64,000 bases of DNA. Origin: Flavobacteriaceae bacterium CG2_30_34_30 (GTDB lineage Bacteria; Bacteroidota; Bacteroidia; Flavobacteriales; Flavobacteriaceae). The notes under the pieces are model-generated. The model was not told the DNA's origin. It made no database searches and saw nothing but the letters and a program-made list of their open reading frames with translations. Shown in pieces: positions 42,865-62,450 of this stretch (positions are counted from its first letter, which is position 1; each line of letters opens with the position of its first letter). Position numbers and translations under genes: made by a program. The DNA lies in contig MNYN01000001.1 of NCBI GenBank assembly GCA_001873105.1, positions 1 to 64,000 of the forward strand, given 5' to 3'.

Positions 42865-43857
42865 TTAAAAAAAATGGATTTTTGCTTTTATTTTTGCATC
42901 AATAAATGGATAATCCATCTTTTCACTATCTAATCTATTAAGGAGAAGTATGGCTGCTTTTTTACCTATATTTTCGGCATTTTGATTGATATAGTTCATT
43001 TTTGGAAAGGTCAGAAGAGCATTCTTAGTGTTAGAAAACCCAATTATCTTGATGTTTTTTGTTTTGAAAGGTTTAATAGAAAGAAGACAATTTTCAAGCA
43101 TAATACCAGAACTATTATCGGCAGCAAGTACTGCATCAAAATCATTTTTTTCAGCCCAACTCCTTAGCTTTTTATGCATATTAGATAAGCTTTGTACACT
43201 AAGTTCTAGTTTTTTTTCATAAACAATTTTTGCCTCTCTCAAAGCTTTTAAATATCCTATTCTGCGTTCTTTTCCAACATTTAGATTATTTATGGAGCTT
43301 AAAAAAGCAATTTTTTTGTAGCCTTTTTCAAGGAGCCGTTTAGTGACCTCATACGTGATTTTTTGATCATCAACACTAACCTTGTCACAGTTTATTTGAT
43401 TTGACAACCTATCAAAAAGCACAAGTTTATTTTTGTGTATTTGGTTAGTAATATGAGAAACATCACCTGTTTTAATAGTTTGGGCTGCAAGTGAAATAAT
43501 AAACCCATCCACACTGCCACTTTTTAATAGTTTTATTTTTTCGGCTTCTTTTTGTGTTTGTTCATTACTTATACAAACAATAGTATCATAGCCTTTTTCT
43601 GAACATTGTTTTTCAATTCCAAAAAGAACTTCTGCAAAAAAGGAGTTTAATATGTCTGGAATAATAACACCTATGGTTTTTGATTTATTATTTCGCAATC
43701 CAGCACCCATTTTGTTTGGTTGATAATTCATTGCTTCTGCTAGTTCTTTTACACGAAATTTGGTATGTTCAGAAATATCTTTGGCATCATTTAATGCTTT
43801 AGATACTGTTGAAATAGAAACGCTTAAGAGTTTTGCTAATTCTTTTAATGAACTCAT
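42865..43857 (-). CDS. LacI family transcriptional regulator
   Basis: SSLKELAKLLSVSISTVSKALNDAKDISEHTKFRVKELAEAMNYQPN; KTIGVIIPDI. Confidence 0.93.
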   Translation of the reverse strand: MSSLKELAKLLSVSISTVSKALNDAKDISEHTKFRVKELAEAMNYQPNKMGAGLRNNKSKTIGVIIPDILNSFFAEVLFGIEKQCSEKGYDTIVCISNEQTQKEAEKIKLLKSGSVDGFIISLAAQTIKTGDVSHITNQIHKNKLVLFDRLSNQINCDKVSVDDQKITYEVTKRLLEKGYKKIAFLSSINNLNVGKERRIGYLKALREAKIVYEKKLELSVQSLSNMHKKLRSWAEKNDFDAVLAADNSSGIMLENCLLSIKPFKTKNIKIIGFSNTKNALLTFPKMNYINQNAENIGKKAAILLLNRLDSEKMDYPFIDAKIKAKIHFF

Positions 43858-43942: not shown

Positions 43943-44758
43943 TTACTTTTTAATTAATTTGATTGTGTTTGATGCATTTTCTGAAGTAATTTTAGCAAAA
44001 TAGATTCCTGTTTTAAAACTAGAGGCATCAATAGAAAGGTTTTGTTGTGTGTTAGTATTGAAATTAGCCATCAATTGACCTTTAACATCATATACTTGGG
44101 TAAGAAAAGTAGTATTTGCTTTGTTTAAGACGACCCATTTATCTGAAGAGGGATTAGGGTAAACAATAAAACTATTTGAAAATTCATTTGATTGGGTGGA
44201 AAGCGTTCCATCACTAAAAACGATATTGTCAAAGAAAATAATGTTGTCTTGTGTTCTTGCATCAAAATCAGGAAAAACTACAATTTGATTTAACACACCA
44301 TTACCTGCGGGAGGATTAATAAAACTAGAAAAATCGAATGTAATTTTTTCCCATTCGTTTATCACGGTATTTGGAATTTTAATTTCACCTTGAGACCAAA
44401 AAGTAGAGGATACTAATTTTATTCCCACATCGCTTATTACAGGTTTCCAAACCATGATGGTAATAATATTATTTGATGCATCAAGAACAAATTCTCCAAG
44501 ATCAGCTCCTTGAGCAGATTCAACTCCAGCAAAAGGTTGGCCGGTTTGTAATGCTGTAAATTGAGCAACAGTTGCAGATGTATTTATTCCGGAAGGATTA
44601 GGATTAGAAATTATTTGTAATTCTGGGTTGGTATCATTTTCAAAGACAGTCCAGGTCCAGTCTGCTCCATTACCGGATGTTTCAAAATTAATTGGGGTGT
44701 TTTGGCTAAATCCATAAAAAATGGTTAGCATTAGCAAAAGGGAAATAATATTTTTCAT
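43943..44758 (-). CDS. T9SS type A sorting domain protein, putative glycan-binding
   Basis: Signal peptide; C-terminal FIVYPNPSSDKWVV..YDVKGQLM..GIYFAKITSENASNTIKLIKK. Confidence 0.82.
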   Translation of the reverse strand: MKNIISLLLMLTIFYGFSQNTPINFETSGNGADWTWTVFENDTNPELQIISNPNPSGINTSATVAQFTALQTGQPFAGVESAQGADLGEFVLDASNNIITIMVWKPVISDVGIKLVSSTFWSQGEIKIPNTVINEWEKITFDFSSFINPPAGNGVLNQIVVFPDFDARTQDNIIFFDNIVFSDGTLSTQSNEFSNSFIVYPNPSSDKWVVLNKANTTFLTQVYDVKGQLMANFNTNTQQNLSIDASSFKTGIYFAKITSENASNTIKLIKK

Positions 44759-44847
44759 TTTATTTTATATTTTAGGTGTTAAAAATTAAAAAGACCCCAA
44801 TTAATATTAAAGTAATAAAATTAATGCCATTAAGGATTTCAGAAATA

Positions 44848-45708
44848 TTATTTTTTAATGAGTTTTATTGTGTTTGAACTGCTTTCTGAAATAATATTGG
44901 CAAAATAAATCCCCGCTTTTAAAACAGAAGTATCAATAGTAAAGGTTTGATTGGAAATATTCTCATTGGTTAAAAGAAGTTTTCCGTTTACGTCATAAAG
45001 GTTTAACGAAAAGCTGGTTAGATTTTTGTTATTAATAATCCAGTTTTGTGTGGTGGGATTTGGATATGCTATGATTGAAGCAATGTCAAAATCTAATGTT
45101 GAAAGAATAAATGGTCCTACAACAACGTTTCCTAAAGTTGCTTCATCTGCTGGGTTAGCATTTAGTCCGGTTACTGAAAATCCGTATTGTATTACCGCGT
45201 CAGTAGCTTCAACATTTGTATATGTGATGGCAAATGTTCCAGCACTGGTAAGTGGTAAACTTTCTTCTTTTAATACGGAAAAATCAGCATTAAATACTTT
45301 AATAAATGCTTTAACAACATATTCTGAAGAAAGTGTAAAAGATTGCACATCTGCTGAAAAGGTTAACTCTTGGCCAAGAAGGTTGCTGTTATTTTCATTA
45401 AATGTATTTCCTTCAAAAACTTTGTTGCCTTCGCCTGTGGTTTGATTTACCCAAAAAGGATCTGTAGGATTATCTCCATAGGTGTTAAAATTTGGAAATA
45501 GAGTAACAGTATTTCCACTTACATCTACTACAGACTTAATGTCTGGAACTCCCCAAGGAGAGCCAAAAACAAATCCACCGCCATTGGCTGGTGTTTCAAA
45601 TACATTGGCAAAACCTAAAAATGTTGCACTGCCATCAATAGTAACTGTGTTTTGACCTACCATAAAGGCAGATGCAAAAAGTAAACTTAATAAGGTGATT
45701 TTTTTCAT
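44848..45708 (-). CDS. T9SS type A sorting domain protein
   Basis: Signal peptide; C-terminal IIAYPNPTTQNWII..LYDVNGKLLL..GIYFANIISESSSNTIKLIKK. Confidence 0.82.
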   Translation of the reverse strand: MKKITLLSLLFASAFMVGQNTVTIDGSATFLGFANVFETPANGGGFVFGSPWGVPDIKSVVDVSGNTVTLFPNFNTYGDNPTDPFWVNQTTGEGNKVFEGNTFNENNSNLLGQELTFSADVQSFTLSSEYVVKAFIKVFNADFSVLKEESLPLTSAGTFAITYTNVEATDAVIQYGFSVTGLNANPADEATLGNVVVGPFILSTLDFDIASIIAYPNPTTQNWIINNKNLTSFSLNLYDVNGKLLLTNENISNQTFTIDTSVLKAGIYFANIISESSSNTIKLIKK

Positions 45709-46042: not shown

Positions 46043-48859
46043 TTAAATATCTAAAATATAATTAGTTAAATTAGTTTCATTGGGTAAGTTCATTTTTTTT
46101 CGTAATCGATACCTTTTAATCTCTACGCTTTTTGGTGAAATATTAAAAAGTGGTGCAATTTCTTTGGAAGAAAGATTAAGTCTTAAATACGCACACAATC
46201 TAAGATCATCTGGAGTTAATGCAGGGTGGTTTGTTTTTATTTTTTTAAAAAAATCTTTATCAGCATTATTAAATGCTTCTTCAAAAAATTTCCAGTCATC
46301 ATTGCTGTTTAAATTTTTATCTATTATTTTCACTACTTTTTTAATATCTTTTTGATCTTGTGTAAATTGGTTTATTTCTGATTTAATACTATTTAGAAAT
46401 TCATTTTTTTTAATAAGACTCATTGTTGAAATAGCAAGCTCTCTATTTTTACCTTCAATATCTTGTAACAATTTTTCATTTTTTAGTTTCATTAATGCTC
46501 TTTTATTTTCAGATTCTTTTAGAGCTAACTCTCTTTTGTTTTTTACCTCAATTTTGCGCCGTTGTTTTTTATAGTACGTTTTATAGATATTATGAATAAT
46601 AATAATGGATATAATAAGCAATATGCAATAAAGGATTAGCATGCTATTAGAAAGATAAAATGGTCTATTAATTCTAAAAGGATAAATAGATATATTTGAA
46701 AAATTATCCTCTCCAATTCTGCCCTTTACCATAAACTCATAATTTCCGTAAGGGAGGTTATTAAAGGTGGCTTCACTACTGATCTGCCAAGAGCTCCAAT
46801 CTTCCATTAAACCATTTAATTTATATTGATACTCTGAAGTATAATATTTTTCGAAAGCAGTTATACTAAAATTAAAATAAATATTGTTGTTTTTGTTTTC
46901 TAATTCAGGTAGTTCTTTTAATGATAAATGAAATGGCGGTTTATTGATTTGGTTAGCTGTTACTTTGTGTATAGTAAGCGAAGGATTTTGTTTTCTGCTA
47001 TAAAATTGTTTTAAATCCAGTAAAAAATAACCTTGCGCATTTCCAAAAAGGTAATTATCATCTTTGTATTCAATAACATTTTCATAGCCAAGCATAGCAT
47101 TTCTAGTGCTATTGGGAATGGGAATAGACAATATTTCTTGGGTTTTACTAACTTTACTTTGAGAAATATAATTTATAAATTGATCTGTAAAATTCCATAT
47201 AGCTAATCCATCATTTGAAACTACTAATTTACCTGAGGTATAACTTGAAGTGTCGTAAAGATTGCTAAAAAATAAGTCTTTTTCAAAAGCTTTTAGTGAA
47301 TTATTGTATTTCCAAATTCCTTTTTCATAAGCATAATAAACGCCATCTTTGTTTTTTACTAGACTTGAATAAAGACCTTTTTCAACAGAATTATCTTTTT
47401 GAATATTTGTTATATTGTTGAAGTCCTCATCCACAGTTAGGGTATAAATTCCTTTGTATTCGTGAGCAACTAATAGTGTATTTGAGTTTACAAATTCTAT
47501 AAACTTAGAGGACATTTTAAAGCCAGTGAGGGTATTTCTATACCGCCATTCTCCTTTAATTTTTTCCAAAAGACTCACTCCTTGATAATTTCCTTGTAAT
47601 AGCAAATTTTTATTTGCATCAACGGTTTTAAAACACCATGTGCCAAGGTTTTCTGAAATTTTCTTTAGCGTTGTATCTTCCACAATAAATGTGCCTTCAT
47701 GGTGGCCACAAAAAAGTGTGTTGTCATAAACAAATAAGGACCATACTTGTCCTACAGAAGAATCAATTAAATTAAATTTGCTAGTATAATCATCGCTTAG
47801 TAAACGATAAAATAATCCTTGATTTGTGCCTAAATACAATTTATTGTCAAAAACAGCCGAAGCGTACACAGTACCTAATTTTCCACTATCATCATTAAAT
47901 ATTTTTATAGAAGATTTTAAATTAAGGCAATCAATTCCATTATCAAGTCCTAACCAAATATTTCCTATTTCATCTTCAAAAATTGAAAGCACCGTGTTGT
48001 TGCTCAAGCTTTGATTTTTAGTTATTTGAAAGTCGATTGACCCTTCTTTATTTAAGTAAATCACACCTTGCGATATGGTACCCAATATAATATCTCCAGA
48101 TTTTGTTTGTAAGCTAGTGTAAACATTTAATGAGTTTAAAAAATTTGCATTATGATCCCATAATTTGGGATTTTCTTCTAAAGTATAAATGCCTTTTGAA
48201 TTGGTTTGGACTAAAATGGTATGGTTAATTTTATAAATATTAATGATTAAGTTTTCTTTAAAAATGGGGTGGTCTGATACAAGTTCTGTTTGAGCGTTGG
48301 AGAGTTTGAATATGCCTGCTTTGGGTTTGCTTATATAAATGTCAGTTTCAATTTGAAACATTTTTGTGATACCTTCTTCCGAGTGAATTTTTTGGATTTC
48401 GCCATTTTGAAGGTTATAGATATAGATGGAATTTAAAGATTGAAACAGCAAAAAGTTAACGTAATGTAAAATAGTCCAAAATTGTTCATCTTCCGACATT
48501 TCATTTTCAAGGCCTTTGCTAAGGGAGGTGTATTTTAATGTCCCAGTTTCTTGTCTTTCCCAAAATCCAAACTCTTTATAACACCCGGTATAAATTTTTT
48601 GGTTAAGTACAAATACAGATCTTATTATACTTTTATTTGGCGATGGATAAAGATTCCATGAGTCTCCATTAAATTCTAATAAACCTTTATTGTTTGCTAC
48701 ATATATGAGTTTATCGTCTCCTTGACTTATAGACCAATTTTGATTATCAGCTTGATAGTCTTTTGAGGAAAAGGAAATTAATGGAGGAAGTTCTTGAGAA
48801 GAAGTCTTATTCCAAAATAAAAAAATCAAAAAATAAATAAAAAAGTATTTTACCTTCAA
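46043..48859 (-). CDS. Sensor-type regulator: beta-propeller + Y_Y_Y domain + TM + LuxR-like HTH
   Basis: Repeated two-component-propeller motifs (FEDEIGNIWLGLDNGIDCLNL), YQYKLNGLMEDWSSWQISSEATFNNLPYGNYEFMVKG, TM, C-terminal LTPDDLRLCAYLRLNLSSKEIAPLFNISPKSVEIKRYRLRKK. Confidence 0.9.
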   Translation of the reverse strand: MKVKYFFIYFLIFLFWNKTSSQELPPLISFSSKDYQADNQNWSISQGDDKLIYVANNKGLLEFNGDSWNLYPSPNKSIIRSVFVLNQKIYTGCYKEFGFWERQETGTLKYTSLSKGLENEMSEDEQFWTILHYVNFLLFQSLNSIYIYNLQNGEIQKIHSEEGITKMFQIETDIYISKPKAGIFKLSNAQTELVSDHPIFKENLIINIYKINHTILVQTNSKGIYTLEENPKLWDHNANFLNSLNVYTSLQTKSGDIILGTISQGVIYLNKEGSIDFQITKNQSLSNNTVLSIFEDEIGNIWLGLDNGIDCLNLKSSIKIFNDDSGKLGTVYASAVFDNKLYLGTNQGLFYRLLSDDYTSKFNLIDSSVGQVWSLFVYDNTLFCGHHEGTFIVEDTTLKKISENLGTWCFKTVDANKNLLLQGNYQGVSLLEKIKGEWRYRNTLTGFKMSSKFIEFVNSNTLLVAHEYKGIYTLTVDEDFNNITNIQKDNSVEKGLYSSLVKNKDGVYYAYEKGIWKYNNSLKAFEKDLFFSNLYDTSSYTSGKLVVSNDGLAIWNFTDQFINYISQSKVSKTQEILSIPIPNSTRNAMLGYENVIEYKDDNYLFGNAQGYFLLDLKQFYSRKQNPSLTIHKVTANQINKPPFHLSLKELPELENKNNNIYFNFSITAFEKYYTSEYQYKLNGLMEDWSSWQISSEATFNNLPYGNYEFMVKGRIGEDNFSNISIYPFRINRPFYLSNSMLILYCILLIISIIIIHNIYKTYYKKQRRKIEVKNKRELALKESENKRALMKLKNEKLLQDIEGKNRELAISTMSLIKKNEFLNSIKSEINQFTQDQKDIKKVVKIIDKNLNSNDDWKFFEEAFNNADKDFFKKIKTNHPALTPDDLRLCAYLRLNLSSKEIAPLFNISPKSVEIKRYRLRKKMNLPNETNLTNYILDI

Positions 48860-48999: not shown

Positions 49000-49932
49000 T
49001 TAGTAAAAAAAATTTTTGTTTTTCAAAATAAGTTTTGGGTTTCTGTTTTCATTATATAAACCCCAGTGTTTTTCAGGCTCCATGGCATCATTAGAACCCT
49101 TCCAAGATTCGTCAAATGCTTCAAAAACAAAGGTCAGAATTTTCTCTTGCTCACTCCATTTCATCAAATCTTTTATATAAATTTCCTGTAATTCCTCACT
49201 TACATTGTGTGGTAGAATACCATTTCCATTTGAGTTTGTTGCCCAACCGGCCTCGGTGATTATTACTGGTTTATGGCAAAATTTTGATGCGACAGCGTGA
49301 TAGTTTTGTTGTGTTACTTGAAGTGCATCGTGTATGTTTTTATACTCCCACACGGGATAGGAATGAATGGAAATAAAATCAATTTCAGCGACTAAGGGCT
49401 CTAATTTGTTTAACCACGGCACATAATTTTCACAAAAAGTGACTGGTTGTTTGGCTCCATTTTTTACCATTCGCACATATTTAATGACACTTTCTACAGA
49501 AACATAGTGATCTGTCCACTCCGCACAAGCTTCATTTCCCACAGAAAGTGCACATATTGTTTCAGGATATTGATTTGCAAATGAAATTAACTTATTGATT
49601 TGTGCCTTATTATATTTTTTATTTTGCTTTAATATTTCTTCTGAATAAACACCGCCCCAGGGACATCCAAAATTATTCATCTCGGCTACAATATAAGCGC
49701 CTAAAAGAACTTTAAAATTCATTTTTTCCTTTTTAATGACTTTTAAAACTGTTTTTGCGTGGAGGTCACAATCATAAATTCTCAAATATTTCCAGTGATT
49801 TTGAAGTAATTCTAAGTCTTCTTTTACTTCTTGATAAGTGGGGTATTCCCCTCCGGGTTGTTGCCCTTGCCTAAATCCTGAATAGCAAATGGCATTGCCG
49901 GATTGTAATTGTAGAGCCTTATATAAATTCAT
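49000..49932 (-). CDS. GH17-like glycoside hydrolase, no signal peptide
   Basis: ALSVGNEACAEW (acid/base region), PVIITEAGWATNSNGNG (nucleophile region), FVFEAFDESWKG. Confidence 0.85.
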   Translation of the reverse strand: MNLYKALQLQSGNAICYSGFRQGQQPGGEYPTYQEVKEDLELLQNHWKYLRIYDCDLHAKTVLKVIKKEKMNFKVLLGAYIVAEMNNFGCPWGGVYSEEILKQNKKYNKAQINKLISFANQYPETICALSVGNEACAEWTDHYVSVESVIKYVRMVKNGAKQPVTFCENYVPWLNKLEPLVAEIDFISIHSYPVWEYKNIHDALQVTQQNYHAVASKFCHKPVIITEAGWATNSNGNGILPHNVSEELQEIYIKDLMKWSEQEKILTFVFEAFDESWKGSNDAMEPEKHWGLYNENRNPKLILKNKNFFY

Positions 49933-50849
49933 TAAAATTTCATTTTTTCATTTTTATCCCAAATACCCCAATAGGCACCCACATCACCTTCGGCACCCTC
50001 TTTCCAAGATTCATCAAAGGAGGAAAAGTAAAACACTTCAATACCGTTAGCTTGCGCCCAAAGTTGTGTTCTTATAAAATAATTTAAGGCATTCATATAG
50101 GATGGTGTAGCACCTTTAAAGCCATTGCCTTGACTGGGCCAGCCTGTTTCTGTGATAATGACTCTTTTGCCATTTCCGGCGGCTTTAGCTTGATGATACA
50201 TTTGATTCATATGGTGTAAGGAATACTCAAACGGGCAGCCTTCCCAATAAGGATAACAGTTGGTGAGTATCACATCACATGCCTCAGTAATGCGAGGACG
50301 TGCTGAAAATTCATAATAAGCATCTACATAGCCCACAGGTATGTTTTTTGGGATGGCATTTTTCACTTGATACAAAAAATCTAGTAGTTCATCTTCACTC
50401 AAGTCTTTGCGGTACATCACTTCGTTGCCCACCGCTGCAATATCAACAAGTCCTTTGTTAGAGAGTTCAATTAAGCCTTCAATTTCGCGTTTGTTAATTT
50501 CTGGATTATCACCCAGCCAAGCTCCTACCAGTGTTTTTAAGCCCATTTTTTTGGCAATTTTTGGAATGTTCTCGTTACCATCTGTACAAGAAAAAGACCG
50601 AACCCAATTAGATACCGGTTGAAGAATTTTCATACGGCGATGCACCTGAGCTTCACTTATGATATCTCCGGGTTGTTGGCCATCTTCATATAAACTGAAA
50701 CAAAAACCGTGAATACCACTATTTAAAATTTTATGGAGCAATGCTTTAAGTTCTTTTTCTGAAGATGCTTCAGGAAACTTAATTTCTTTAAACTTTAAAA
50801 GGTATTCGAGCCACCCACCTTCTAAAACTCTTTCTTTTCTGTATGACAT
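49932..50849 (-). CDS. GH17-like glycoside hydrolase, no signal peptide
   Basis: AAVGNEVMYRKD, RVIITETGWPSQGNG, FYFSSFDESWKEG; overlaps next gene as TAATG. Confidence 0.87.
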   Translation of the reverse strand: MSYRKERVLEGGWLEYLLKFKEIKFPEASSEKELKALLHKILNSGIHGFCFSLYEDGQQPGDIISEAQVHRRMKILQPVSNWVRSFSCTDGNENIPKIAKKMGLKTLVGAWLGDNPEINKREIEGLIELSNKGLVDIAAVGNEVMYRKDLSEDELLDFLYQVKNAIPKNIPVGYVDAYYEFSARPRITEACDVILTNCYPYWEGCPFEYSLHHMNQMYHQAKAAGNGKRVIITETGWPSQGNGFKGATPSYMNALNYFIRTQLWAQANGIEVFYFSSFDESWKEGAEGDVGAYWGIWDKNEKMKF

Positions 50850-50874: not shown

Positions 50875-53253
50875 TTAATCTTTTGTAAATTTAAATTTTT
50901 CATGAACGTCCCAAAGACCCCAGGAGGTTCCTGCCCACCCTTCATCGTGTATTTTCCAAGACTCATCAAATGAAGAGAAATAGAATAAGTCTACGTTGGC
51001 GTGATTGGCCCAATGTTGAATATTTATGAAATACTTCATCACATTTGTTTTTGATGGAACAGCTTCTTCTTCCACTTTTCCTTTGCCGGGCCAACCTGTT
51101 TCTGAGATAACTACTTTTTTATTTTGGGCAATTTCTTGTGTTTTTTGATACATTTCCTGAAGGTATAAGCCGGCATAGTCAATTTGCGCACCTTCCCAAA
51201 AAGGATAGCAATTAATCATAACTACTTCACAAACTTCAATAAGTGCCGGGCGGTTATAAAATTCATAATACACATCGACATAACCCACCGGAATATCTTT
51301 CGCTTTGTTTTTTACTTGTTTGATGTAATTGATGAGTTTTTCTTCCTGTTGGTCTCCTCTAAAGAGCACTTCATTACCAACTGAAGCCATATCTATCAAC
51401 CCTTGTTCGATTAAATTTATAAGCGATTGAATTTCTAGATTGTTTTTTTCATCATTTTTACTTATCCAGGCACCCATGAGTATTTTGAAACCCATTTCTT
51501 TGGCAATGGCAGGTATTTTTTCGTGACCGTTTGTACACGAAAAAACCCTCACCCACTCACTATGTGGTTTCAAAACAGCAAGTCGTTTTCTTATTTGTTT
51601 TTCCGAGATAAAGTCGCCGGGATTTTGATTTTCTTGATAAGGACTAAAACAAATTCCGTGCAATCCTTTTTCAAATGTTTCAGTGAAGTGAGCTTGTAAA
51701 AGCTCTGCATCGAGTGAATCTACATCAATGGGTGTGCTGTAGTAGTTTGGAAATCTGTCGAGAACCTCAGCTTTTGTAAAACCTTTTATATTGATTTCGG
51801 GTATAATTCTTGCGGCTCCATATCCTGAAGGTTTTGGTTTTTTTCTTCGGGCTAATTCAGCTTGAATTTCATTGGCTCGCTGCTCGGTTAAATCATAATT
51901 GCGCATTACAAACATGGCGATGAGGGTTCCCATAATTGGAATACCCGAATAGAAAAGGCGCAACCCAGTTACAGCACCTTCTGTTTGTGATTCTGCACCA
52001 GGGACAAAGCCCACAGCTGAGATGATGACCCCGCTCAACAAGCCTGCAATGGCAAAACCAAATTTCACCATCCACCAATAGATGGCTCCAAAAATGCCTT
52101 CTCTTCTTTTTCCGGTGTTTAATTCATCTAAATCACAAACATCTGCTGTCATTGACATCATTAGGGTAAATAAACTTCCTATTCCAAAGGAAAAGAAGGG
52201 TAATGCAAAAATAAACATATAAGGTTTGCCGGGAATGAATAAAAACCACAGTAAGATGTATCCAATGATGGAGATTCCTTGCGACCAAAGAAAAGCATTT
52301 TTTTTGCCCATTATCCGAGACATTTTGGCTACAATGGGAATTACTAAAAACGTTGTAACTACAGCACCCAAACTACCAAAGAGTGTAGGCCAAATGCCAG
52401 CAGCTTCGGCATTTCCATTAAACAAATGATAGACAACAATAAAAAATGAAAAGGCAGCAATGGTGTTAAACGCATTGAAAATAAGAAATGTAGAAATACA
52501 GAGCTTTCTGAATGGTACTGAAGAAAAAGCTTCTTTAAAACCAATTAGGATTTGTTTAAAACTACTTCCAATAGTTTTGAAGGTAATAGGGGTTAGTGAG
52601 TTATTATTTTTTGTTGACTTGCTTTTAATAAAAAAAGCTGGCATCATCGCTAATATAGTACAACTAACACCCACCCAAATTGCAAGGGTGCGGGTTGCTG
52701 TATCTGCATTTGGAAACCATTCCGGGTCATACATTACTACCCAAAACCAGGGGGCGATAACCCACGCCCACTGGCCAATCCATTGAGCAACGGCCATAAT
52801 GTTTGTACGCTCATGAAAATTATCACTCATTTCATAACCCATTGCCACATAGGGCACACTAAAAATGGTTAAGCCTAAATAAAACACAAAAGACCAAAGC
52901 AAAAAATAATAAAAATTGTAATACATGCCATTTTCACGATACAATTGCCACATGATGATAAAGGAAATGCCCATGAGTATAGAACCAATAAAAACATACT
53001 GCCGCCTACGTCCCCAAACAGAGCGTGTATTGTCTGAAATAAAGCCCATTATGGGGTCTGTAATGGAATCAAATACTCTGGGTAAGAAAAACAAAATGCC
53101 CCACATCCATCCAGGAAAACCAAGATCTTGTACAAGCACCACCATAAAGATTCCCAATGCCGCCGGAAACATTTGATTTGCTAACATTCCCAAGCCAAAG
53201 GCCACTTTTTGACCAAATGCTACTTTACCGAGATTGCTTACTTGTTTTTCCAT
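50875..53253 (-). CDS. GPH-type MFS sugar transporter (aa ~1-460) fused to C-terminal GH17 domain (aa ~510-792)
   Basis: DSITDPIMGFISDNTRSVWGRRRQ (GPH signature-like) and typical C-terminal YDLTEQRANEIQAELARRK, then VGNEVLFRGD and VVISETGWPGKG in the same uninterrupted frame. Confidence 0.9.
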   Translation of the reverse strand: MEKQVSNLGKVAFGQKVAFGLGMLANQMFPAALGIFMVVLVQDLGFPGWMWGILFFLPRVFDSITDPIMGFISDNTRSVWGRRRQYVFIGSILMGISFIIMWQLYRENGMYYNFYYFLLWSFVFYLGLTIFSVPYVAMGYEMSDNFHERTNIMAVAQWIGQWAWVIAPWFWVVMYDPEWFPNADTATRTLAIWVGVSCTILAMMPAFFIKSKSTKNNNSLTPITFKTIGSSFKQILIGFKEAFSSVPFRKLCISTFLIFNAFNTIAAFSFFIVVYHLFNGNAEAAGIWPTLFGSLGAVVTTFLVIPIVAKMSRIMGKKNAFLWSQGISIIGYILLWFLFIPGKPYMFIFALPFFSFGIGSLFTLMMSMTADVCDLDELNTGKRREGIFGAIYWWMVKFGFAIAGLLSGVIISAVGFVPGAESQTEGAVTGLRLFYSGIPIMGTLIAMFVMRNYDLTEQRANEIQAELARRKKPKPSGYGAARIIPEINIKGFTKAEVLDRFPNYYSTPIDVDSLDAELLQAHFTETFEKGLHGICFSPYQENQNPGDFISEKQIRKRLAVLKPHSEWVRVFSCTNGHEKIPAIAKEMGFKILMGAWISKNDEKNNLEIQSLINLIEQGLIDMASVGNEVLFRGDQQEEKLINYIKQVKNKAKDIPVGYVDVYYEFYNRPALIEVCEVVMINCYPFWEGAQIDYAGLYLQEMYQKTQEIAQNKKVVISETGWPGKGKVEEEAVPSKTNVMKYFINIQHWANHANVDLFYFSSFDESWKIHDEGWAGTSWGLWDVHEKFKFTKD

Positions 53254-53259
53254 TTCATT

Positions 53260-54786
53260 TTAGTTTGGATTTAGTACAATTGTTTGAAGGGCTTCACCGT
53301 CTATGGCGATTGTTTTAGTAAAATTTTCAAGTTGCAAATTGAAATTTTTAGCTTCTTTTTCCTGATTTAAAAGCACGACTACAAAACTGCCATCGGGGTT
53401 TTGGACAGCAGTAACTAGAAGTGTTGCATCAGTACTTTTCCAACCAATACGTTTTGCACCGGGTCTAATAAATTTGCTGAAATGAACCATGGTGTAATAC
53501 AAAGGGGTGAAATACACTTCGTTTTTTTCCGGATCTACAATCACTGGAGCAATACACCAGTTTTCAAACCAGTTGGGTCCTCCTTGTTTGTCGAGCACCA
53601 TATTCCAGTCTATCCAGCCGTTTACCCAGTTATTCAAACAGCCTATAATGTCTATCGCATAACGATATACGGGCACATATTTTGGGTGAAGATATTTTTT
53701 ATCTTCTGAGGCCCAAGTCCAGCCCCAGTCTGTGGCTTCTTTTTTCCAATACCAGGCATCATCATGCCAAACGGGCACTTGAGCATCAATACATGCCTCA
53801 GTTTGAATTAAATAATCATCATGGGCTTTTTGATGTGCATATTGCAATGCTTCCGGAAATACTTCAAAAGTACTTGCATACCAGTGAATGGCAGTTCCGT
53901 CAATGTATTTTGAGGATGCCTTATCAGCATACATCACATCTACCCATTTTTTGAGTTCATCACGATTTTGATCATAGCCTAAAATTTTTACATTTTCAAG
54001 TCCCTCATATTCCATTTTAGGACCTAAATATTTTTTGACAAAGTCGGTCATTTCTTGTGCTGTGTAGTGCATACTCTCCCAATTGTTTGAGTTGCCCAAA
54101 GGCTCATTTTCCAGGGTAATTCCCCAAATATCGATGCCTTCTGTTTGATAAGCCTGTATGTATTTTGCAAAATACAACGCCCAGCTGTCGTAATATTCCG
54201 GAAGAAGTTTTCCGCCAACCCAGTTGTTGTTGTCCTTCATGTATGGAGGCGCAGTCCAGGGAGAGGAGATGATTTTAAAGCCTTGCGGCGAAATGGCTTT
54301 GGCTTCTAATATCATGGGAATAATGTCATCTCTGTCTGGCTCAATAGAAAATTTTTCCAATTGAAAATCATCAGGGTCATCAGAATAGGCATATTGGCTT
54401 AATGAAAAATCACAGGAGTTAATGTGTGTGCGAGTCAAGGAATAGTTTGCTCCATTTTCACTAAAATAGGCTTCAAGAATTTTAGTTCTGTTTTCTTGAC
54501 TAAGTTGGTTGAGAAGATAGCCTGAGGCCTCGGTAAATGAGCCTCCAAAGCCTAGTATTTCCTGAAATGTTTCTTCAGGGTGAAGGCTGATATTGTTTTC
54601 TGAATTTTTCTGAGGAAATTCTGTAATAATTGCTAAATGATTTCCCGCTGAGGAAGTTTCATAGACTTCTATTTTCATTTTATTTGATTCTTGACAACTC
54701 ACAAAAGATAGCATAATGACAGAAGCCCAAATCAGATTTGGTAATTTACTAAGTGAAAACTGTATGCCATTAATCTTTAAATTCAT
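53260..54786 (-). CDS. GH30 family glycosidase (lipoprotein)
   Basis: Lipobox SFVSC; EILGFGGSFTEAS, ITLENEPLGNSNNWESMHYTAQEM, IQTEACIDAQVPVWHDDAWYWKKEATDWGW. Confidence 0.9.
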   Translation of the reverse strand: MNLKINGIQFSLSKLPNLIWASVIMLSFVSCQESNKMKIEVYETSSAGNHLAIITEFPQKNSENNISLHPEETFQEILGFGGSFTEASGYLLNQLSQENRTKILEAYFSENGANYSLTRTHINSCDFSLSQYAYSDDPDDFQLEKFSIEPDRDDIIPMILEAKAISPQGFKIISSPWTAPPYMKDNNNWVGGKLLPEYYDSWALYFAKYIQAYQTEGIDIWGITLENEPLGNSNNWESMHYTAQEMTDFVKKYLGPKMEYEGLENVKILGYDQNRDELKKWVDVMYADKASSKYIDGTAIHWYASTFEVFPEALQYAHQKAHDDYLIQTEACIDAQVPVWHDDAWYWKKEATDWGWTWASEDKKYLHPKYVPVYRYAIDIIGCLNNWVNGWIDWNMVLDKQGGPNWFENWCIAPVIVDPEKNEVYFTPLYYTMVHFSKFIRPGAKRIGWKSTDATLLVTAVQNPDGSFVVVLLNQEKEAKNFNLQLENFTKTIAIDGEALQTIVLNPN

Positions 54787-54794
54787 TTTAGTGG

Positions 54795-56069
54795 TTAATT
54801 TTTGGAGTATAAAGGAGGAGCTAAGGTTGCTTTAATAATTATAGATTCATCACCGTTTTGGGTTTTTCTAATGAGGTTGCCATTCCTTGTTAGACCTTCA
54901 AAAACTCCTCGATTTACGAGATTCCAGAGGGCATATTTTGCTTGACCATCAACAGTAAATAAACCAAAGTGGTTTTCAGAACCTGCTGGGTTTGCTGCGT
55001 CTTTCCAAGGTTCATCAAAGGCTTCAAAATAAAAACAACTAATGCTGTCTTTTTGGGTCCATTCTCGCATATGCTTATAATAAACTCCCTCTTTGTATTC
55101 ATCGCAAGTTTTGGAGCCACCTGGGCCGAAATACCCATCAGAAGAGCTTGCCCAGCCAGTTTCACCAATATGAACCGGTTTGTCAACACCCAATGATTTC
55201 ATATAGTTAATAACAGATTTGTATTGCTTTTGAGCGAAGGATTTAGCGCGTAACATTGCTGCGTCAATTTTTTCTAAATCACTAAGGTTTTCTTCACTTT
55301 CAGGCGTAAACCAAAAATCGGGATTGTAGTGTGTGTCAAGCATAGGGTAGGTATGCATCATGATAAAATCTACTGAGCGTATGAGTTTTTCTAAATCGGG
55401 GACGTGGTATTCTGAATCACCGCCACCCCATGAAGCAAAATTATCTGAGCTAGTAATCCACAATTCCTCCTTTAATTTTCCATTTTTTTTAAGGTCTTGT
55501 AAGTAATTAACCCACTTTAGAATGACTCCCGGCTGCACATAGTAACTTTCTGCCCATTTGACCATGGCTTCATTGCCAACGGCGATTGCTTTTACGATAT
55601 CTGGGTATTGATTGGCGAGTTCTGCCGCACGCTTTATTTCCCATTCGTTATTTTCGTCTTCTTCTTTGTGATTGGGGTTGGCTTTAAAGGCATCTTTACA
55701 GTTTATCCACGCACCCACAACGACATACATTTTAAAATTGGGATTTTCCTGTTTTAGTTGGTGTATGGCTTTCAAAACATTTGAAGCGTGAGGCTTGTGT
55801 AATTTATAAGTGCGTAAAAGATGAACGCCCATTGCATGGAGTATTTTCAGGTCTTCTTTTAATTGCTCTACAGTGGGTTCACTATCGTGATTGGCATCGC
55901 GATAACCGCCAAATGAGATGGCTTTAAAGTTTGGATTACCAAAAACTTGTGAAGGACTTAAGCGACTATTTTCATTCATATGTGGGGAGGCATTTTTACA
56001 AGAAACAGTTATGAGCAGTATTAATATAAAGCCAGAAAGGTTAAATTGTATGTTATTTAATAGTCTCAT
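54795..56069 (-). CDS. GH17-like glycoside hydrolase (lipoprotein)
   Basis: Lipobox ITVSC; AIAVGNEAMVKW, VHIGETGWASSSDG, FYFEAFDEPWK. Confidence 0.87.
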   Translation of the reverse strand: MRLLNNIQFNLSGFILILLITVSCKNASPHMNENSRLSPSQVFGNPNFKAISFGGYRDANHDSEPTVEQLKEDLKILHAMGVHLLRTYKLHKPHASNVLKAIHQLKQENPNFKMYVVVGAWINCKDAFKANPNHKEEDENNEWEIKRAAELANQYPDIVKAIAVGNEAMVKWAESYYVQPGVILKWVNYLQDLKKNGKLKEELWITSSDNFASWGGGDSEYHVPDLEKLIRSVDFIMMHTYPMLDTHYNPDFWFTPESEENLSDLEKIDAAMLRAKSFAQKQYKSVINYMKSLGVDKPVHIGETGWASSSDGYFGPGGSKTCDEYKEGVYYKHMREWTQKDSISCFYFEAFDEPWKDAANPAGSENHFGLFTVDGQAKYALWNLVNRGVFEGLTRNGNLIRKTQNGDESIIIKATLAPPLYSKN

Positions 56070-59000
56070 TTTAAATATTTTGAGGTTAAATGCACGTCAA
56101 TTTTTACAATTTCACCTGTTCTTTGGAAAACTTTATTGCTGTTTTCATTATTGAGTTGAAGTGAGGTTGGATTTTGCGTTTTCCCGTCAACAAAAGAGAG
56201 TATTAATGCTTCTTTTTCGCTTAGGGTATAAACAATTGGAATTTGACAATAAGTAAAGGCTAATGATCCTGCTGCTAACTCAATTTCTTGTTGGTTTTGA
56301 TGAACGTCGATAAAAGAAAACAGAGCAGCCTCTTTTAAAAACTCTTCTTCTTTTCGCAGTAAACAGGGGTAAAAAAGAAGTTTGCCCTCGTATACAAAAA
56401 CGCCCAATTCTCCAAATCGGCTAAGAATATCTTCTTTTACCTGTCCAGTCATACCGGGTTGTTGGGCTCCTTTACCGGCTGGCGTGTGCGAGTAAGGGTC
56501 TGTTGGAAAGGCCCCATAGAGTTTGGGTGATTTATGCACACCAATTCCTTCGTTGATTTCATAATAATGTTCAAGGAGTTTGCCAATTACTTCGGGGGTT
56601 TCGTTTTCACGAATGGCCTTCAGGCAACATTCCTGTACCGCTAGTTGCAATTTTGAAACCATATGCCAATAAATAGAGCCTAAACCTTCATAGCCATAAA
56701 AGGTTCCGGAACGTCCGGTAAATTCTTTGTGATTGAAAACCATTTCGAAAAGTTGCAATAATTGAGGGGTTTCTTTTTCAATCAAACGAGAATATTTAGA
56801 CTGTTTTAAAGATTCTAAAGTGTGCTTTAATACACGGGCATTGTTAAAATTTCCGTTAAAGTGATAGTTGCCATTAATGTCTTTTTCTACAATTTGTGTA
56901 TTACCGTCTTGCATCATTTTGACTAATAACTCAGAACTTTCAACGGTTTCTTTTGGGAGCACATTTTTCTCTAAAAAGGAGGGCAATTCTTTATTAGGAT
57001 ATAAAATATAGCTGTATTGGTCTGGTCTAAAGAGCTTACTTTTTTTGAGAGCATTGAGCACCGCTAGGCTTTCTGCTGAAGTTAAATACCCAGCGCTTAA
57101 AGCGGCTACTTGTCCTTCGAGCATTTCATTTAAATATGAAATTTGTATTTCATTTTTATTAGAAATGGTCATTAGGTTGTAAGCGTGGTAGAGGTTGTCG
57201 GGTCTTTTGTTTGCTCTAATAGAGTGATCAATGAAATTTAAGGTGGTTTCTATAAAAGTTTTTAGTTGACTTAGTTCTAACATACTTTTTCTTCCGCTAA
57301 AAGCCTTTTTGTAAATGGTTGTTCTGTAGTTAGAGGCTGATTGACCCACAGCATCAAGAATTATTTTTCTTTCAGAATCTTTAATGCTTCGTTTAAGTAT
57401 ATGGTCATGGTCTTTGAGTGTTTTGGCCACTTGATTAAAATAGGAGAGCAATTCATTTGAAATTTCTACTTGAGCGGGTTCAGCATCTGCAACAATTTTG
57501 TTGAAAAAGCTTAAAAAGCGTCTCAAATAGTAAAGTGTTACCATCGACACACCGTTTCCAACCAACGCATTGTTTGCATCGTTCCATTCGGGTCTTTGGG
57601 TGTTGAGCCATATGCCTGCTTCGGGAATAAAATTAGACACTTTAGCAAGAATGGTAGCCAACATTTTTTCGATAAAGTTAACTTTGCAAATAAACAAGTT
57701 TTCATCTCTAAGCAAAAAGCCATCTGCGCCCAATTCTTGTTTTTTGATGTTGAGTTTTTCATCGAGTTCATAATCAAACTCAATAGTGTCTTTGGGGTTT
57801 TTTACGAGGTCTTTATAGGGTTTTATTTTATAAGGAACGTTAGCATAAACAAATAAATCTTTATCAAAAAAACTTTGAAGAATGTCTGGTTTGTGGTTTT
57901 CTAGGGATTCTAAAAATTTTAGTAAATATATTATTTGATGATCTCCCCAATAACCAATATAGGACCAAGGATTGTTTTCTTCAATAACTTCCCAATCAAA
58001 ACCATCTTTGGTGATCCGGTAAGGGTTGTAACCGTCAAAAGTGGTGGCGTTAAGAAATTTGTGAATCATACTTTCTATAAACTCTGGAAAAGCGGTAGAT
58101 AAGGCTTCCCAGTTTTGAAAAATATCTCTCCAGTTTCCTTCATAATCTAATATTTTTGATCCATCTATTTCATTACGAGTATTGATGGAAAATTTATTCC
58201 AAGGTCTGCTTGGGTCGCCATGTCTTCTGCTAAATTTGAGGGGCATATACTCTAGACAAAGTCTTCTAAAGTTTTTATCGTCACTCTCAAGTCCTATTTT
58301 TTTTAAGCTAGTTAGGTCAAATATATCTGGAAGTGTTTTTAGAGTTTTTTCAGACGTTTTAAAAACTTTTTTGTTTGCGCTAGACAGGTATTTTTCAAAA
58401 TCCCATTTTTCTATTTGATAGTTGTTATCAAAAACACCACCTCTCATTATATTAAACAAGGTATTTGCCATATGTCTAGTATCTCTTGCTTTGTCAGCAG
58501 TTAGTTGCAAGGCATCTGAGGAGGCAATTAGTTTTATTAGTTTTTGGGTTCCTATATTACTATCATCAAGTACATCTTGATAGAGTAGTGAATTGGTTTT
58601 GATTTTGTCAATTAGTGAAGCAATGGCGCTGTGGTTTTGGTTTACATTTGCAATTATCAGCCAGTCTTTTTGTGTGTAAGAGGAGAGGTTTATTTTTTTG
58701 TGAATAAAATAGGCTCCTTTTTCTGCTTTAATGTCGGTTTCTGAAATTAATGTTTTACCTTTTCTAAAATCCTCAAGTTGTAAATTTGAGAGGAGATAGG
58801 TAGGATTTTCTATTCCAATGGACCAAACTATATTTGCTTTTAGTGCTTCACTAGGTTCGGCTTTATCTACAATGATGGCGCTTAAAGCAAAAATACCTAA
58901 ACCGCTATTTGCTTCTAACTCAGTTCTTTTATATGCATCAACCAGATTGCTGCTTTGATTTTGCAAATCTGCACTTACGCCATAAGGCATAACATTTTGA

Positions 59001-59536
59001 ATGCCGTCTAATAGAGAGAGTTTAACCTCAAAATTGTTATTATTTATGAGCGAAGATTTTTTTACAAAACCATAGGTGTCTGATGAATTCCATTGATACC
59101 TGAAGGTAATTCCAAAAGTGTAATTCACTTCTTCAAAAATAATTTTGTTTCCGTAGCGGTTTTTGTAAAGATTTCGAGTAATCTGAAAATTTGCTTTGGT
59201 TCTTTTAGAAAATGGCTCCCATAGAAAATTGTTTTCATTTTGACGAACAATTACGAGAGTTTTACTTCCGGTAGTTCCGGCAGATTCGGTGATTTTATCT
59301 TCTGTATAATAAGGAAATAAGGCATTATTACTGTCTTTTCTTCCGGCTGTTAATCCTCCGTTGCTTGAAATAAACATCCAATGATTTGAATCACTTACTA
59401 TATTCATAAAAAAAGGACGCATCGCATCGGAATTTTCTATTTTATAATACAATTCGTTATCTATTTCGACATAGGAGTGATTACTATTTTTGATTGATAA
59501 ATCTTGTAATTCCTTTATTGTTAATTCCTTATTCAT
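56066..59536 (-). CDS. GH149/GH94-like carbohydrate phosphorylase, candidate beta-1,3-oligoglucan phosphorylase
   Basis: 1156 aa, no signal peptide; MFISSNGGLTAGRKDSNNALFPYYTEDKITESAG, ILDYEGNWRDIFQNWEAL; 4-bp ATGA overlap with downstream GH17. Confidence 0.75.
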   Translation of the reverse strand: MNKELTIKELQDLSIKNSNHSYVEIDNELYYKIENSDAMRPFFMNIVSDSNHWMFISSNGGLTAGRKDSNNALFPYYTEDKITESAGTTGSKTLVIVRQNENNFLWEPFSKRTKANFQITRNLYKNRYGNKIIFEEVNYTFGITFRYQWNSSDTYGFVKKSSLINNNNFEVKLSLLDGIQNVMPYGVSADLQNQSSNLVDAYKRTELEANSGLGIFALSAIIVDKAEPSEALKANIVWSIGIENPTYLLSNLQLEDFRKGKTLISETDIKAEKGAYFIHKKINLSSYTQKDWLIIANVNQNHSAIASLIDKIKTNSLLYQDVLDDSNIGTQKLIKLIASSDALQLTADKARDTRHMANTLFNIMRGGVFDNNYQIEKWDFEKYLSSANKKVFKTSEKTLKTLPDIFDLTSLKKIGLESDDKNFRRLCLEYMPLKFSRRHGDPSRPWNKFSINTRNEIDGSKILDYEGNWRDIFQNWEALSTAFPEFIESMIHKFLNATTFDGYNPYRITKDGFDWEVIEENNPWSYIGYWGDHQIIYLLKFLESLENHKPDILQSFFDKDLFVYANVPYKIKPYKDLVKNPKDTIEFDYELDEKLNIKKQELGADGFLLRDENLFICKVNFIEKMLATILAKVSNFIPEAGIWLNTQRPEWNDANNALVGNGVSMVTLYYLRRFLSFFNKIVADAEPAQVEISNELLSYFNQVAKTLKDHDHILKRSIKDSERKIILDAVGQSASNYRTTIYKKAFSGRKSMLELSQLKTFIETTLNFIDHSIRANKRPDNLYHAYNLMTISNKNEIQISYLNEMLEGQVAALSAGYLTSAESLAVLNALKKSKLFRPDQYSYILYPNKELPSFLEKNVLPKETVESSELLVKMMQDGNTQIVEKDINGNYHFNGNFNNARVLKHTLESLKQSKYSRLIEKETPQLLQLFEMVFNHKEFTGRSGTFYGYEGLGSIYWHMVSKLQLAVQECCLKAIRENETPEVIGKLLEHYYEINEGIGVHKSPKLYGAFPTDPYSHTPAGKGAQQPGMTGQVKEDILSRFGELGVFVYEGKLLFYPCLLRKEEEFLKEAALFSFIDVHQNQQEIELAAGSLAFTYCQIPIVYTLSEKEALILSFVDGKTQNPTSLQLNNENSNKVFQRTGEIVKIDVHLTSKYLK

Positions 59537-59701: not shown

Positions 59702-60520
59702 TTATTCATATACTCTTATATAGTCTACAAGCATTGTTTGCGGAAATAGCGTATTATCGTTTGGTGGTCCTACAAAAGAACCTCCAACGGCAACATTCAT
59801 AATAATATAAAAAGGATGATTAAAAACCCAATCTCCAGGAACATCTGCTGGAGTAATTTGATTATATAAGGTATCATCTACATAAAAATTAATAAAATCT
59901 GGACCCCATTCTATCCCAAATATGTGAAAACCTGTATCAAATCTATCGTTTTCTAAAATAAAACCCTTTGAAACAGATTCACCTGCTGAATAACCAGGTC
60001 CGTGAACGCTGCCGTCTATTCTTATAGGATTTTGCCCCCTGTATTCCATAATGTCAATTTCACCACATAAAGGCCAATCGTTTTGTTCACAGTTATTGCC
60101 TAAAAGCCAAAAGGCTGGCCAAATACCTTGACCCCAAGGGAGTTGTATTTTGGCTTCAAATCGTCCATAAGTTTTTTCAAATTTGCCTTGTGTTTTTATT
60201 CTGGCAGAAGTAAAATTAGAACCTTGAAAGGGTTCTTGACGAGCAATGAAATGAAGCATTCCATTTTCAATTTTAATATTTTCTGGACGGTCTGTATAAT
60301 ACTGTAATTCATTATTGCCCCATCCATTGTCTCCAGTACCAATATCAAAAGACCATAGGGAACTATCAATTGTGCCGTCGTTATTAAACTCATCTGAAAT
60401 AGAAAGTTTTGTAAAGTTATTTCCTATACTTTGAGTTTCATCGGTTGTACAACCTACTAGGATGGTCAAATAAATACCAACTAAAAAACGAGTGATTTTA
60501 TATGTATTTTTCATAATCAA
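59702..60520 (-). CDS. GH16 family glycosidase (laminarinase-like lipoprotein)
   Basis: Lipobox ILVGC; CGEIDIMEYRGQNP catalytic EIDIME; WPAFWLLG. Confidence 0.93.
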   Translation of the reverse strand: MIMKNTYKITRFLVGIYLTILVGCTTDETQSIGNNFTKLSISDEFNNDGTIDSSLWSFDIGTGDNGWGNNELQYYTDRPENIKIENGMLHFIARQEPFQGSNFTSARIKTQGKFEKTYGRFEAKIQLPWGQGIWPAFWLLGNNCEQNDWPLCGEIDIMEYRGQNPIRIDGSVHGPGYSAGESVSKGFILENDRFDTGFHIFGIEWGPDFINFYVDDTLYNQITPADVPGDWVFNHPFYIIMNVAVGGSFVGPPNDNTLFPQTMLVDYIRVYE

Positions 60521-60539: not shown

Positions 60540-62450
60540 TTAATCTATAATTTGTAAATCATCATAGTAGTATGTGCTTCCATCACCTGGCAAATCAGCA
60601 ATAAATTCGAAAAACACGACTATTCTAACAAAACTTGCAGAAGTGTTCATACCATTAAAGTCCCATTCTAATTCTTCCCATTCATTAAGAGTAGTTGTAT
60701 TTGCGTCTAACTCAATTCCTACTGAATTGTCAACATTTTCAAGTCGTACTCTAATGGGAATACCACTTTTGGGTGAAAGTACTTTCATTCTGAATTTTTG
60801 AGAGTTTGAAAAATCTATTGGGGAATCGAGATTGAGTAGGGTGCCTGCAAAAAATTGGGATCCGGCAGTTTTAGTGGAACGCATCACTCTTGAAGTTGGA
60901 TTTATTCCTTCAGGTAAAGGATTCGTTTCAATAACGGAATCTGCACCTTCAAACCCTAAAAAGTCATAGGCAAGAGTTATAGATTCAAAACCAATGGGCA
61001 GAGCTACTTGTGTTGCACCTGAATCATCCACATTAGGGGAAGGTGTTATAACATCTCTGTAATAATAAATATTGTCAACAAAAATATTTGATATGGTGGC
61101 ATCAGAAACAAAAAATAAGAGTCCAATTTGATTTCTTGCACCTAAACCCGTAAATTCTTCTAGAGGAATATCAAGACTTGCCCATTGATTGGTTACTAAT
61201 ATAGAATTTGTGAAAGTTACAGAACCTGATGTTTCATTATTGCCAACATTATTTATTAATTGTATTTTAATAAAATCTCCCGGCTCTATAGTTTCTTGTA
61301 CATTAATATCCACGTGAAGATGTGTCATTGTAGAGGCATTTATTGTTGGTACATTTAAAAATGTGCCTATACCCACAAAATTTAGGTCTGTATAATTTAT
61401 TACTTCTTCACCTCCTATATTAATAGGTGGAGCTCCTCCTTGTGTGGTTTGCCCATCTCCATTAAAAAAACCATTGTAATAATCTACTGGTACATTGGTG
61501 TATGCATCGCTAAAAACAGAAATAACATTTTCCGGAGCTCTAGTTGGGGTAGGAGCTTGTTCAAATTCTCCTAATGATTCTATAGTTAGAGATCCTGTGG
61601 CCTCTACATCGCCTAAACTTGCTCTTATTACTGTAGTGCCAGAGCCAATAATGGCAATTTCACCAAGGTCATTTACCGTTGCAACTTGTGGATTTGAAGA
61701 AATAAAATTAAAGTAACTAGGTGCAGCACTAACTGTTTGGTTTGATCCATTTTCAAGATTAAAAGTTTGAGATAAACCGGTAGTCATAATAGTTGAACCT
61801 GAAAAAGTTTGTTGGGTTATATTTTCACCATTAAAAATTTTTGGTCTTGGTTGTGCTATGGTTCCTAATTTTTCATATTTTAATTCATCTACCCAAAAAG
61901 TATAGCCATTTCCGTTTTCAGGACCTTCAGCATACCAAAAGAGACCTTTTTCTTCTATTAATTTTGAAGGATCAGGTATTGCAATTGTATATTTTTGCCA
62001 GTTAGTCGTTAATTGTAGGTTTTGAAGGGTGGTTAAATACTTGTTTTCACCAAAATCTTGACCAAAGCCTATTTCATTTATTGTACCTGCGGTGGTTGCT
62101 TTTGCCCAAAAAGTAAGGGCATCATACTCCGTTAGATCTCTTCCTGAAAAGTCGGGAAAAATGGCACCGGCAAAGGCGCCTAGGGGATCTCCTACATTAG
62201 GCACATCAAATCGCATTGAAGCGGTTCCTTCATATTTTTCGTTGGTATCCACATTGAAGGCATCAAGTCTTGAACCTGCAAAGGGTAAATATTGTAAACC
62301 AGCACTAAAGCCGTCTATAAATACTTCTGGATTATTAGAAAATCTTGCTTCAACAGCATCTTGTGTAAGATCTCTATCACAACTAAATGATATGAGAAGA
62401 AGTCCTAGTGTAGTTGTGGTTATGATATATTTTTTCATCCAATTTTTCAT
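60540..62450 (-). CDS. Surface glycan-binding-like lipoprotein with Ig-like (Big_2) domain
   Basis: Lipobox LISFSC; beta-rich CBM-like segments, Ig-like VATVNDLGEIAIIGSGTTVIRASLGDVEATGSLTI. Confidence 0.7.
   Translation of the reverse strand: MKNWMKKYIITTTTLGLLLISFSCDRDLTQDAVEARFSNNPEVFIDGFSAGLQYLPFAGSRLDAFNVDTNEKYEGTASMRFDVPNVGDPLGAFAGAIFPDFSGRDLTEYDALTFWAKATTAGTINEIGFGQDFGENKYLTTLQNLQLTTNWQKYTIAIPDPSKLIEEKGLFWYAEGPENGNGYTFWVDELKYEKLGTIAQPRPKIFNGENITQQTFSGSTIMTTGLSQTFNLENGSNQTVSAAPSYFNFISSNPQVATVNDLGEIAIIGSGTTVIRASLGDVEATGSLTIESLGEFEQAPTPTRAPENVISVFSDAYTNVPVDYYNGFFNGDGQTTQGGAPPINIGGEEVINYTDLNFVGIGTFLNVPTINASTMTHLHVDINVQETIEPGDFIKIQLINNVGNNETSGSVTFTNSILVTNQWASLDIPLEEFTGLGARNQIGLLFFVSDATISNIFVDNIYYYRDVITPSPNVDDSGATQVALPIGFESITLAYDFLGFEGADSVIETNPLPEGINPTSRVMRSTKTAGSQFFAGTLLNLDSPIDFSNSQKFRMKVLSPKSGIPIRVRLENVDNSVGIELDANTTTLNEWEELEWDFNGMNTSASFVRIVVFFEFIADLPGDGSTYYYDDLQIID

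Follow-up and report, generated by a model that had tools for sequence, protein, structure and literature searches.

Organization of the laminarin cluster

The window, i.e., the whole stretch of DNA analysed here, comprises the first 64,000 nucleotides of contig MNYN01000001.1 of Flavobacteriaceae bacterium CG2_30_34_30. Along its minus strand lie, in this order, genes for an SGBP-like lipoprotein, a GH16, a GH149, a GH17A, a GH30, an MFS transporter fused to a GH17 domain, and two more GH17 proteins, GH17b and GH17c, followed by a regulator (Table 1). A relative of the window's GH30, FbGH30, has been characterised by Unfried et al. 2018 (PMC6246565). No signal peptide was seen on the stand-alone GH17b.

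Table 1. Genes of the laminarin cluster, with the parts and predicted key residues of the MFS-GH17 fusion.
Feature	Coordinates	Strand	Evidence or remark
Surface glycan-binding-like lipoprotein, putative function	60540..62450	-	no family over cut-off
GH16 lipoprotein-like endo-glucanase candidate	59702..60520	-	Pfam search
GH149 beta-1,3-glucan phosphorylase	56066..59536	-	NF058639, 1778 bits vs cut-off 1150
GH17A-type lipoprotein-like enzyme; endo-laminarinase type by relatives FbGH17A/MlGH17A (PMC6246565; PMC13188888)	54795..56069	-	Pfam search
GH30 lipoprotein-like; beta-1,6-glucosidase family by relatives	53260..54786	-	Pfam search
MFS transporter-GH17 fusion gene, 792 aa	50875..53253	-	single open frame; both Pfam cut-offs passed; one frame in 38 loci
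MFS_2/GPH-like transporter part, residues 13-471	51841..53217	-	12 TM helices and cytoplasmic C-terminal helix 457-471
Linker, about residues 472-500	51754..51840	-	model confidence low at 472-484; no in-frame start codon
GH17 (beta/alpha)8 domain, about residues 501-792	50878..51753	-	Pfam match, model, fold match to 4wtr
E628, predicted acid/base (VGNE)	51370..51372	-	VGNEVLFR opposite VGSEVLYR of RmBgt17A
F631	51361..51363	-	position of MlGH17B Tyr136 / RmBgt17A Tyr102
E718, predicted nucleophile (ISETGWP)	51100..51102	-	opposite the residue mutated to Ala in 4wtr
Stand-alone GH17 (GH17b)	49932..50849	-	Tyr kept at 136; MlGH17B-related in type; Pfam search, alignment
Third, more divergent GH17 (GH17c), cytoplasmic-type	49000..49932	-	conserved in some other loci
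Sensor-regulator: Reg_prop / Y_Y_Y / LuxR-type HTH	46043..48859	-	profile search

No SusCD pair stands beside the cluster: the SusD profile found no match on the window's contig, and the two matches of the genome lie on other contigs. The C70 SusC/D pair was considered as the partner of the cluster and rejected; it adjoins a LacI regulator and another MFS gene, a setting that seems to resemble an alpha-glucan cluster.

A genuine transporter-glycoside hydrolase fusion

The fusion frame contains no stop codon and encodes the transporter first, with MFS_2 (PF13347) matching residues 19-457 (E=1.1e-61), then the hydrolase, with Glyco_hydro_17 (PF00332) reaching 38.0 bits against a cut-off of 28.2. 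The preliminary description had placed an uninterrupted 792-aa frame at 50875-53253 and read it as a GPH/MFS transporter followed by a complete GH17 domain. Coordinates and frame are correct, the strand, unstated there, is the minus strand, and both domains exceed their Pfam cut-offs, the former having a GPH/MelB-like fold. Translation of a separate GH17 from an internal start was ruled out: there is no in-frame ATG, GTG or TTG between M450, in the last transmembrane helix, and residue 531, inside the GH17 barrel, so an intact separate GH17 cannot come from internal initiation.

That the frame might be an assembly or frameshift artefact, a concern voiced in the same description, is ruled out by the recurrence of the fusion in about 30 other Bacteroidota genomes. 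The MFS_2 plus GH17 architecture, for which it had proposed a search, occurs in one frame in 38 loci, representing about 30 distinct genomes once duplicate records are removed. Since it is present in an isolate, Chryseobacterium gambrini DSM 18014, and on a closed chromosome from Balneolaceae, neither chance nor misassembly can account for it. The order GH149-GH17A-GH30-[MFS-GH17]-GH17b(-GH17c) recurs across Flavobacteriaceae, Weeksellaceae and Balneolaceae. Four congeners were sampled: G681 carries the fusion with 90% identity, a second shows an equivalent GH30-MFS-GH17b layout in which the carrier is unfused and distantly related, and the other two gave no match. Many related loci likewise encode an unfused carrier with a stand-alone GH17b beside it; as unfused carriers do the same job there, fusion is not essential.

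Two sorts of candidate were discarded. Apparent MFS fusions of another kind, as 1025-aa "open frames", were rejected as the MFS frames stop at normal length before the next gene. Matches spanning 9-790 with stops inside proved, where checked, to be mostly separate adjoining MFS and GH17b genes. Four laminarin loci (L045, L046, L047 and L049) each contain a pair of dissimilar MFS carriers, sharing about 48% and 70% identity with that of the window, and two GH17b genes, none of them fused.

Relation to published systems

The MFS-GH17 fusion is already known: it has been in print since 2018 and is spread widely among bacteria that feed on laminarin, so its novelty is low. Unfried et al. described the same fusion as FORMB_24740/FbGH17B of Formosa sp. 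Hel1_33_131, called it common in marine Flavobacteriia, and found its GH17 domain to be an exo-beta-1,3-glucosidase with in vitro hydrolytic activity on debranched laminarin and its oligosaccharides, releasing glucose (PMC6246565). As in the window, the N-terminal MFS and C-terminal GH17 are encoded by one gene within a laminarin cluster holding GH30 and GH17A. In a 2023 bloom metatranscriptome, at least one MFS-GH17 fusion was present in most of the expressed "variant 1" laminarin PULs, including those of the gammaproteobacterial SAR92 (PMC10108472); the fusions gathered here are from Bacteroidota. These variant 1 PULs, from Bacteroidota and Gammaproteobacteria, share with the window the fusion along with GH149, GH17, GH16 and GH30, but the window's cluster has no adjoining SusCD pair. 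A lack of susCD was also reported for one NS4-clade MAG (PMC10108472), and the absence is consequently not decisive for membership. By its frame, its domain order and its clustering with GH30, GH17A and GH149, the window's gene is a member of the FbGH17B-type MFS-GH17 fusions.

Transporter part and topology

The transporter part aligns end to end with MelB, residues 13-472 covering MelB 5-452 up to its C-terminal tail, and its best PDB fold matches are MelB (TMt 0.79-0.83) and MFSD2A. D62 and D66 of the fusion stand opposite MelB D55 and D59, its cation-site residues. MelB D19 and D124, which belong to the sugar site, correspond to Q27 and S132; as they are not kept, the substrate cannot be read from MelB. 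TIGR00792 (GPH) scores 180.8 bits, below the NCBIfam cut-off of 231.35, making "GPH-like" (MFS_2) the safe name. The carrier thus shares with MelB and MFSD2A the fold and the aligned Asp pair, while it differs in the lost sugar-site Asp, in falling under the TIGR00792 cut-off and in the attached GH domain.

The structure model of the fusion, built from 8 sequences (mean pLDDT 78.6), displays 12 transmembrane helices, the last of which ends at residue 451. An amphipathic helix (457-471), a linker of low confidence (472-484) and the GH17 barrel come next; with a pTM of 0.60, the relative placement of carrier and GH17 domain in it is not reliable. With helix ends taken from the model, predicted inner loops hold 29 Lys and Arg residues versus 2 on outer loops. 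No signal peptide or 13th helix was seen in the fusion protein, and the chain beyond residue 475 contains no further hydrophobic stretch (maximum Kyte-Doolittle 0.98). Both termini of MelB are inside. Together, the 12 helices, the positive-inside signal and the MelB topology place the GH17 domain in the cytoplasm, a computationally supported prediction in which GH17 starts beyond the MelB-like C-terminal tail. The 12 helices, inside termini and cytoplasmic GH17 proposed in the preliminary description are supported by the same model, charge counts and alignment. Alternatively, the GH17 could sit in the periplasm and cut oligosaccharides before import of glucose or laminaribiose. Unfried et al. 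discussed simultaneous cleavage and transport, the membrane side not being fixed in the available text (PMC6246565), which leaves room for such an arrangement. It is nonetheless highly improbable, as the helix count, the charge distribution and the homology to MelB all point to an internal C terminus, and neither a signal peptide nor a 13th helix was seen.

Catalytic and acceptor-site residues of the GH17 domain

In sequence comparison, the GH17 part comes nearest to RmBgt17A (PDB 4wtp/4wtr; residues 553-768, E=4e-34), which is also the nearest solved structure, and a structure search with the predicted model gave 4wtr as best PDB fold match (TMt 0.81). The acid/base and nucleophile motifs pointed out earlier (VGNEVLFR and ISETGWPG) are borne out by this alignment, E628 and E718 being an invariant pair in alignment A1. 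Loss of catalytic residues, which had been named as a possibility, was not seen: counterparts of both occur in 33/33 fused domains compared. The PF00332 match over cut-off and both predicted catalytic Glu identify the domain as a GH17 member.

Its mode of action is less straightforward. RmBgt17A is a beta-1,3-glucanosyltransferase in which replacement of the acceptor Tyr by Ala abolishes transglycosylation, and the stand-alone MlGH17B of Muricauda lutaonensis, 53% identical to FbGH17B, is a transglycosylase as well; Tyr136 of MlGH17B is Met in FbGH17B, which its authors proposed as one reason for the activity difference (PMC11005184). Of the acceptor-site trio (Tyr136, Trp191 and Glu192 in MlGH17B numbering), the fused domain of the window keeps Trp and Glu, and Tyr is replaced by Phe, unlike the Met of FbGH17B (PMC11005184). 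MlGH17B resembles the window's fused domain in GH17 type, place in the cluster and cytoplasmic location; it differs as a stand-alone transglycosylase with Tyr at 136, and is nearer to the window's stand-alone GH17b.

Fused and stand-alone GH17 domains form separate lineages

On the GH17 tree, the clade of stand-alone GH17b excludes the fused domains with starred support, L080 being the one exception. There (478-2940), a GH17b-type domain is fused to the carrier and no other GH17b lies in the locus stretch; on sequence grounds, L080 is an independent fusion event, at least one such having occurred. In loci L050 and L057, GH17 domains of the fused type are joined to carriers from another clade (transporter part 41-43% identical), and on the MFS tree fused and unfused carriers interleave, with 12 label changes, at least 8 of them on starred branches.

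Position 136 separates the groups to a large extent. Tyr is found in 84/91 stand-alone domains, a non-exhaustive set collected through their resemblance to the window's protein, versus 6/33 fused ones; non-Tyr residues occupy it in 27/33 fused (L17, M5, F4, H1) versus 7/91 stand-alone domains. The window follows this pattern: its fused domain has Phe and the stand-alone neighbour has Tyr. At the remaining catalytic and binding positions checked, both groups show little or no variation, 168, 190 and 275 being the variable ones. Only 4 Tyr/non-Tyr changes map on the GH17 tree, so the counts reflect few events, and a tree-aware test of fusion against Tyr136 loss yielded 2 independent pairs, too few for significance. 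The difference suggests a hydrolase/transglycosylase split resting on few evolutionary events. As the subclade holding the window's fused GH17 has both Phe and Tyr at 136, FbGH17B-like behaviour should not be presumed for this copy. What is possibly new is that fused GH17s are lineages apart from their stand-alone neighbour and mostly lack the acceptor-site tyrosine.

The third GH17 (GH17c) stands far from the other two on the tree, has Val at 136 and is conserved in laminarin loci of Flavobacteriaceae and Balneolaceae; no description of its function was found in the papers cited here.

Proposed role of the fusion

We consider it probable that the window encodes a fusion of the published family in which the carrier imports debranched beta-1,3-gluco-oligosaccharides and the tethered GH17 trims them at the cytoplasmic exit. 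The outer enzymes GH16, GH17A and GH30 would convert laminarin to short debranched beta-1,3-gluco-oligosaccharides in the periplasm, and the GPH-like carrier, presumably cation-coupled, would take these across the inner membrane. At its cytoplasmic exit the tethered GH17 would trim the arriving chains, and the resulting glucose and shortened chains would pass to GH149 phosphorylase in the cytoplasm, to the stand-alone GH17s and into central metabolism. With the tether, little free oligosaccharide would build up at the exit, which, we propose, would pull transport forward. Cleavage of oligosaccharides by the GH17, as put forward in the preliminary description, finds support in its homologue FbGH17B, which acts on debranched laminarin and oligosaccharides in vitro (PMC6246565). 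For this organism, we infer the transported substrate, the coupling of import to cleavage, and the product.

The main rival, which we judge unlikely, is that the fused GH17 is chiefly a transglycosylase. Imported oligosaccharides would then be elongated or branched on entry and, unable to flow back through the carrier, metabolically trapped as better GH149 substrates or as a small store. Kinship with RmBgt17A and MlGH17B (PMC11005184) would fit such a role, as would the invariance in fused domains of W191, E192 and the other binding residues checked apart from 136, 168, 190 and 275; the window's Phe at 136 is, moreover, still aromatic. Yet FbGH17B, the only fused domain assayed, releases glucose and is described as an exo-hydrolase (PMC6246565), and 27/33 fused domains are without the tyrosine whose replacement by Ala kills transglycosylation in RmBgt17A (PMC11005184).

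A second rival, less likely still, takes the tether as structural or regulatory bookkeeping (stoichiometry, co-expression) without channelling, a soluble enzyme being equally good. The interleaving of fused and unfused carriers agrees with it, as does the stand-alone GH17b kept beside the carrier in unfused loci. Against this, the GH17 lineages to which the window's fused domain belongs occurred in our sample solely as fusions, and a second GH17 type was fused independently in L080, which together suggest some benefit of fusing.

Trimming at the exit, the reading we prefer, can be extended only tentatively to a division of labour between two cytoplasmic GH17 paralogues. Possibly, the tethered-only lineage, devoid of the acceptor Tyr, hydrolyses at the exit and the stand-alone one transglycosylates; fusion at least twice and exchange of carriers would then reflect repeated selection for tethering. 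It is in this division that the remaining interest lies. The paralogue split and the acceptor-site change bear on the acknowledged contradiction between FbGH17B as a hydrolase and the 53% identical MlGH17B as a transglycosylase. Much marine carbon flows through laminarin, and an enzyme attached to its carrier also offers a natural test of channelling between uptake and processing.

Additional features

Beyond the window, the cluster seems to go on (L093:2549-13078, G000:C46) with a GH2-like TIM-barrel protein, an SSF symporter and a PIG-L deacetylase-like protein, again without SusCD. Two small secreted proteins with Por_Secre_tail sorting domains (43943-45708) adjoin both a LacI-type regulator (42865-43857) and the cluster. 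At the very start of the contig (1-1439), bases 1-957 are exactly repeated at a shift of 972, either a tandem copy or an assembly end artefact; two identical 153-aa ORFs (6-467 and 978-1439) lie there, which we take to resemble IS200-type transposases.
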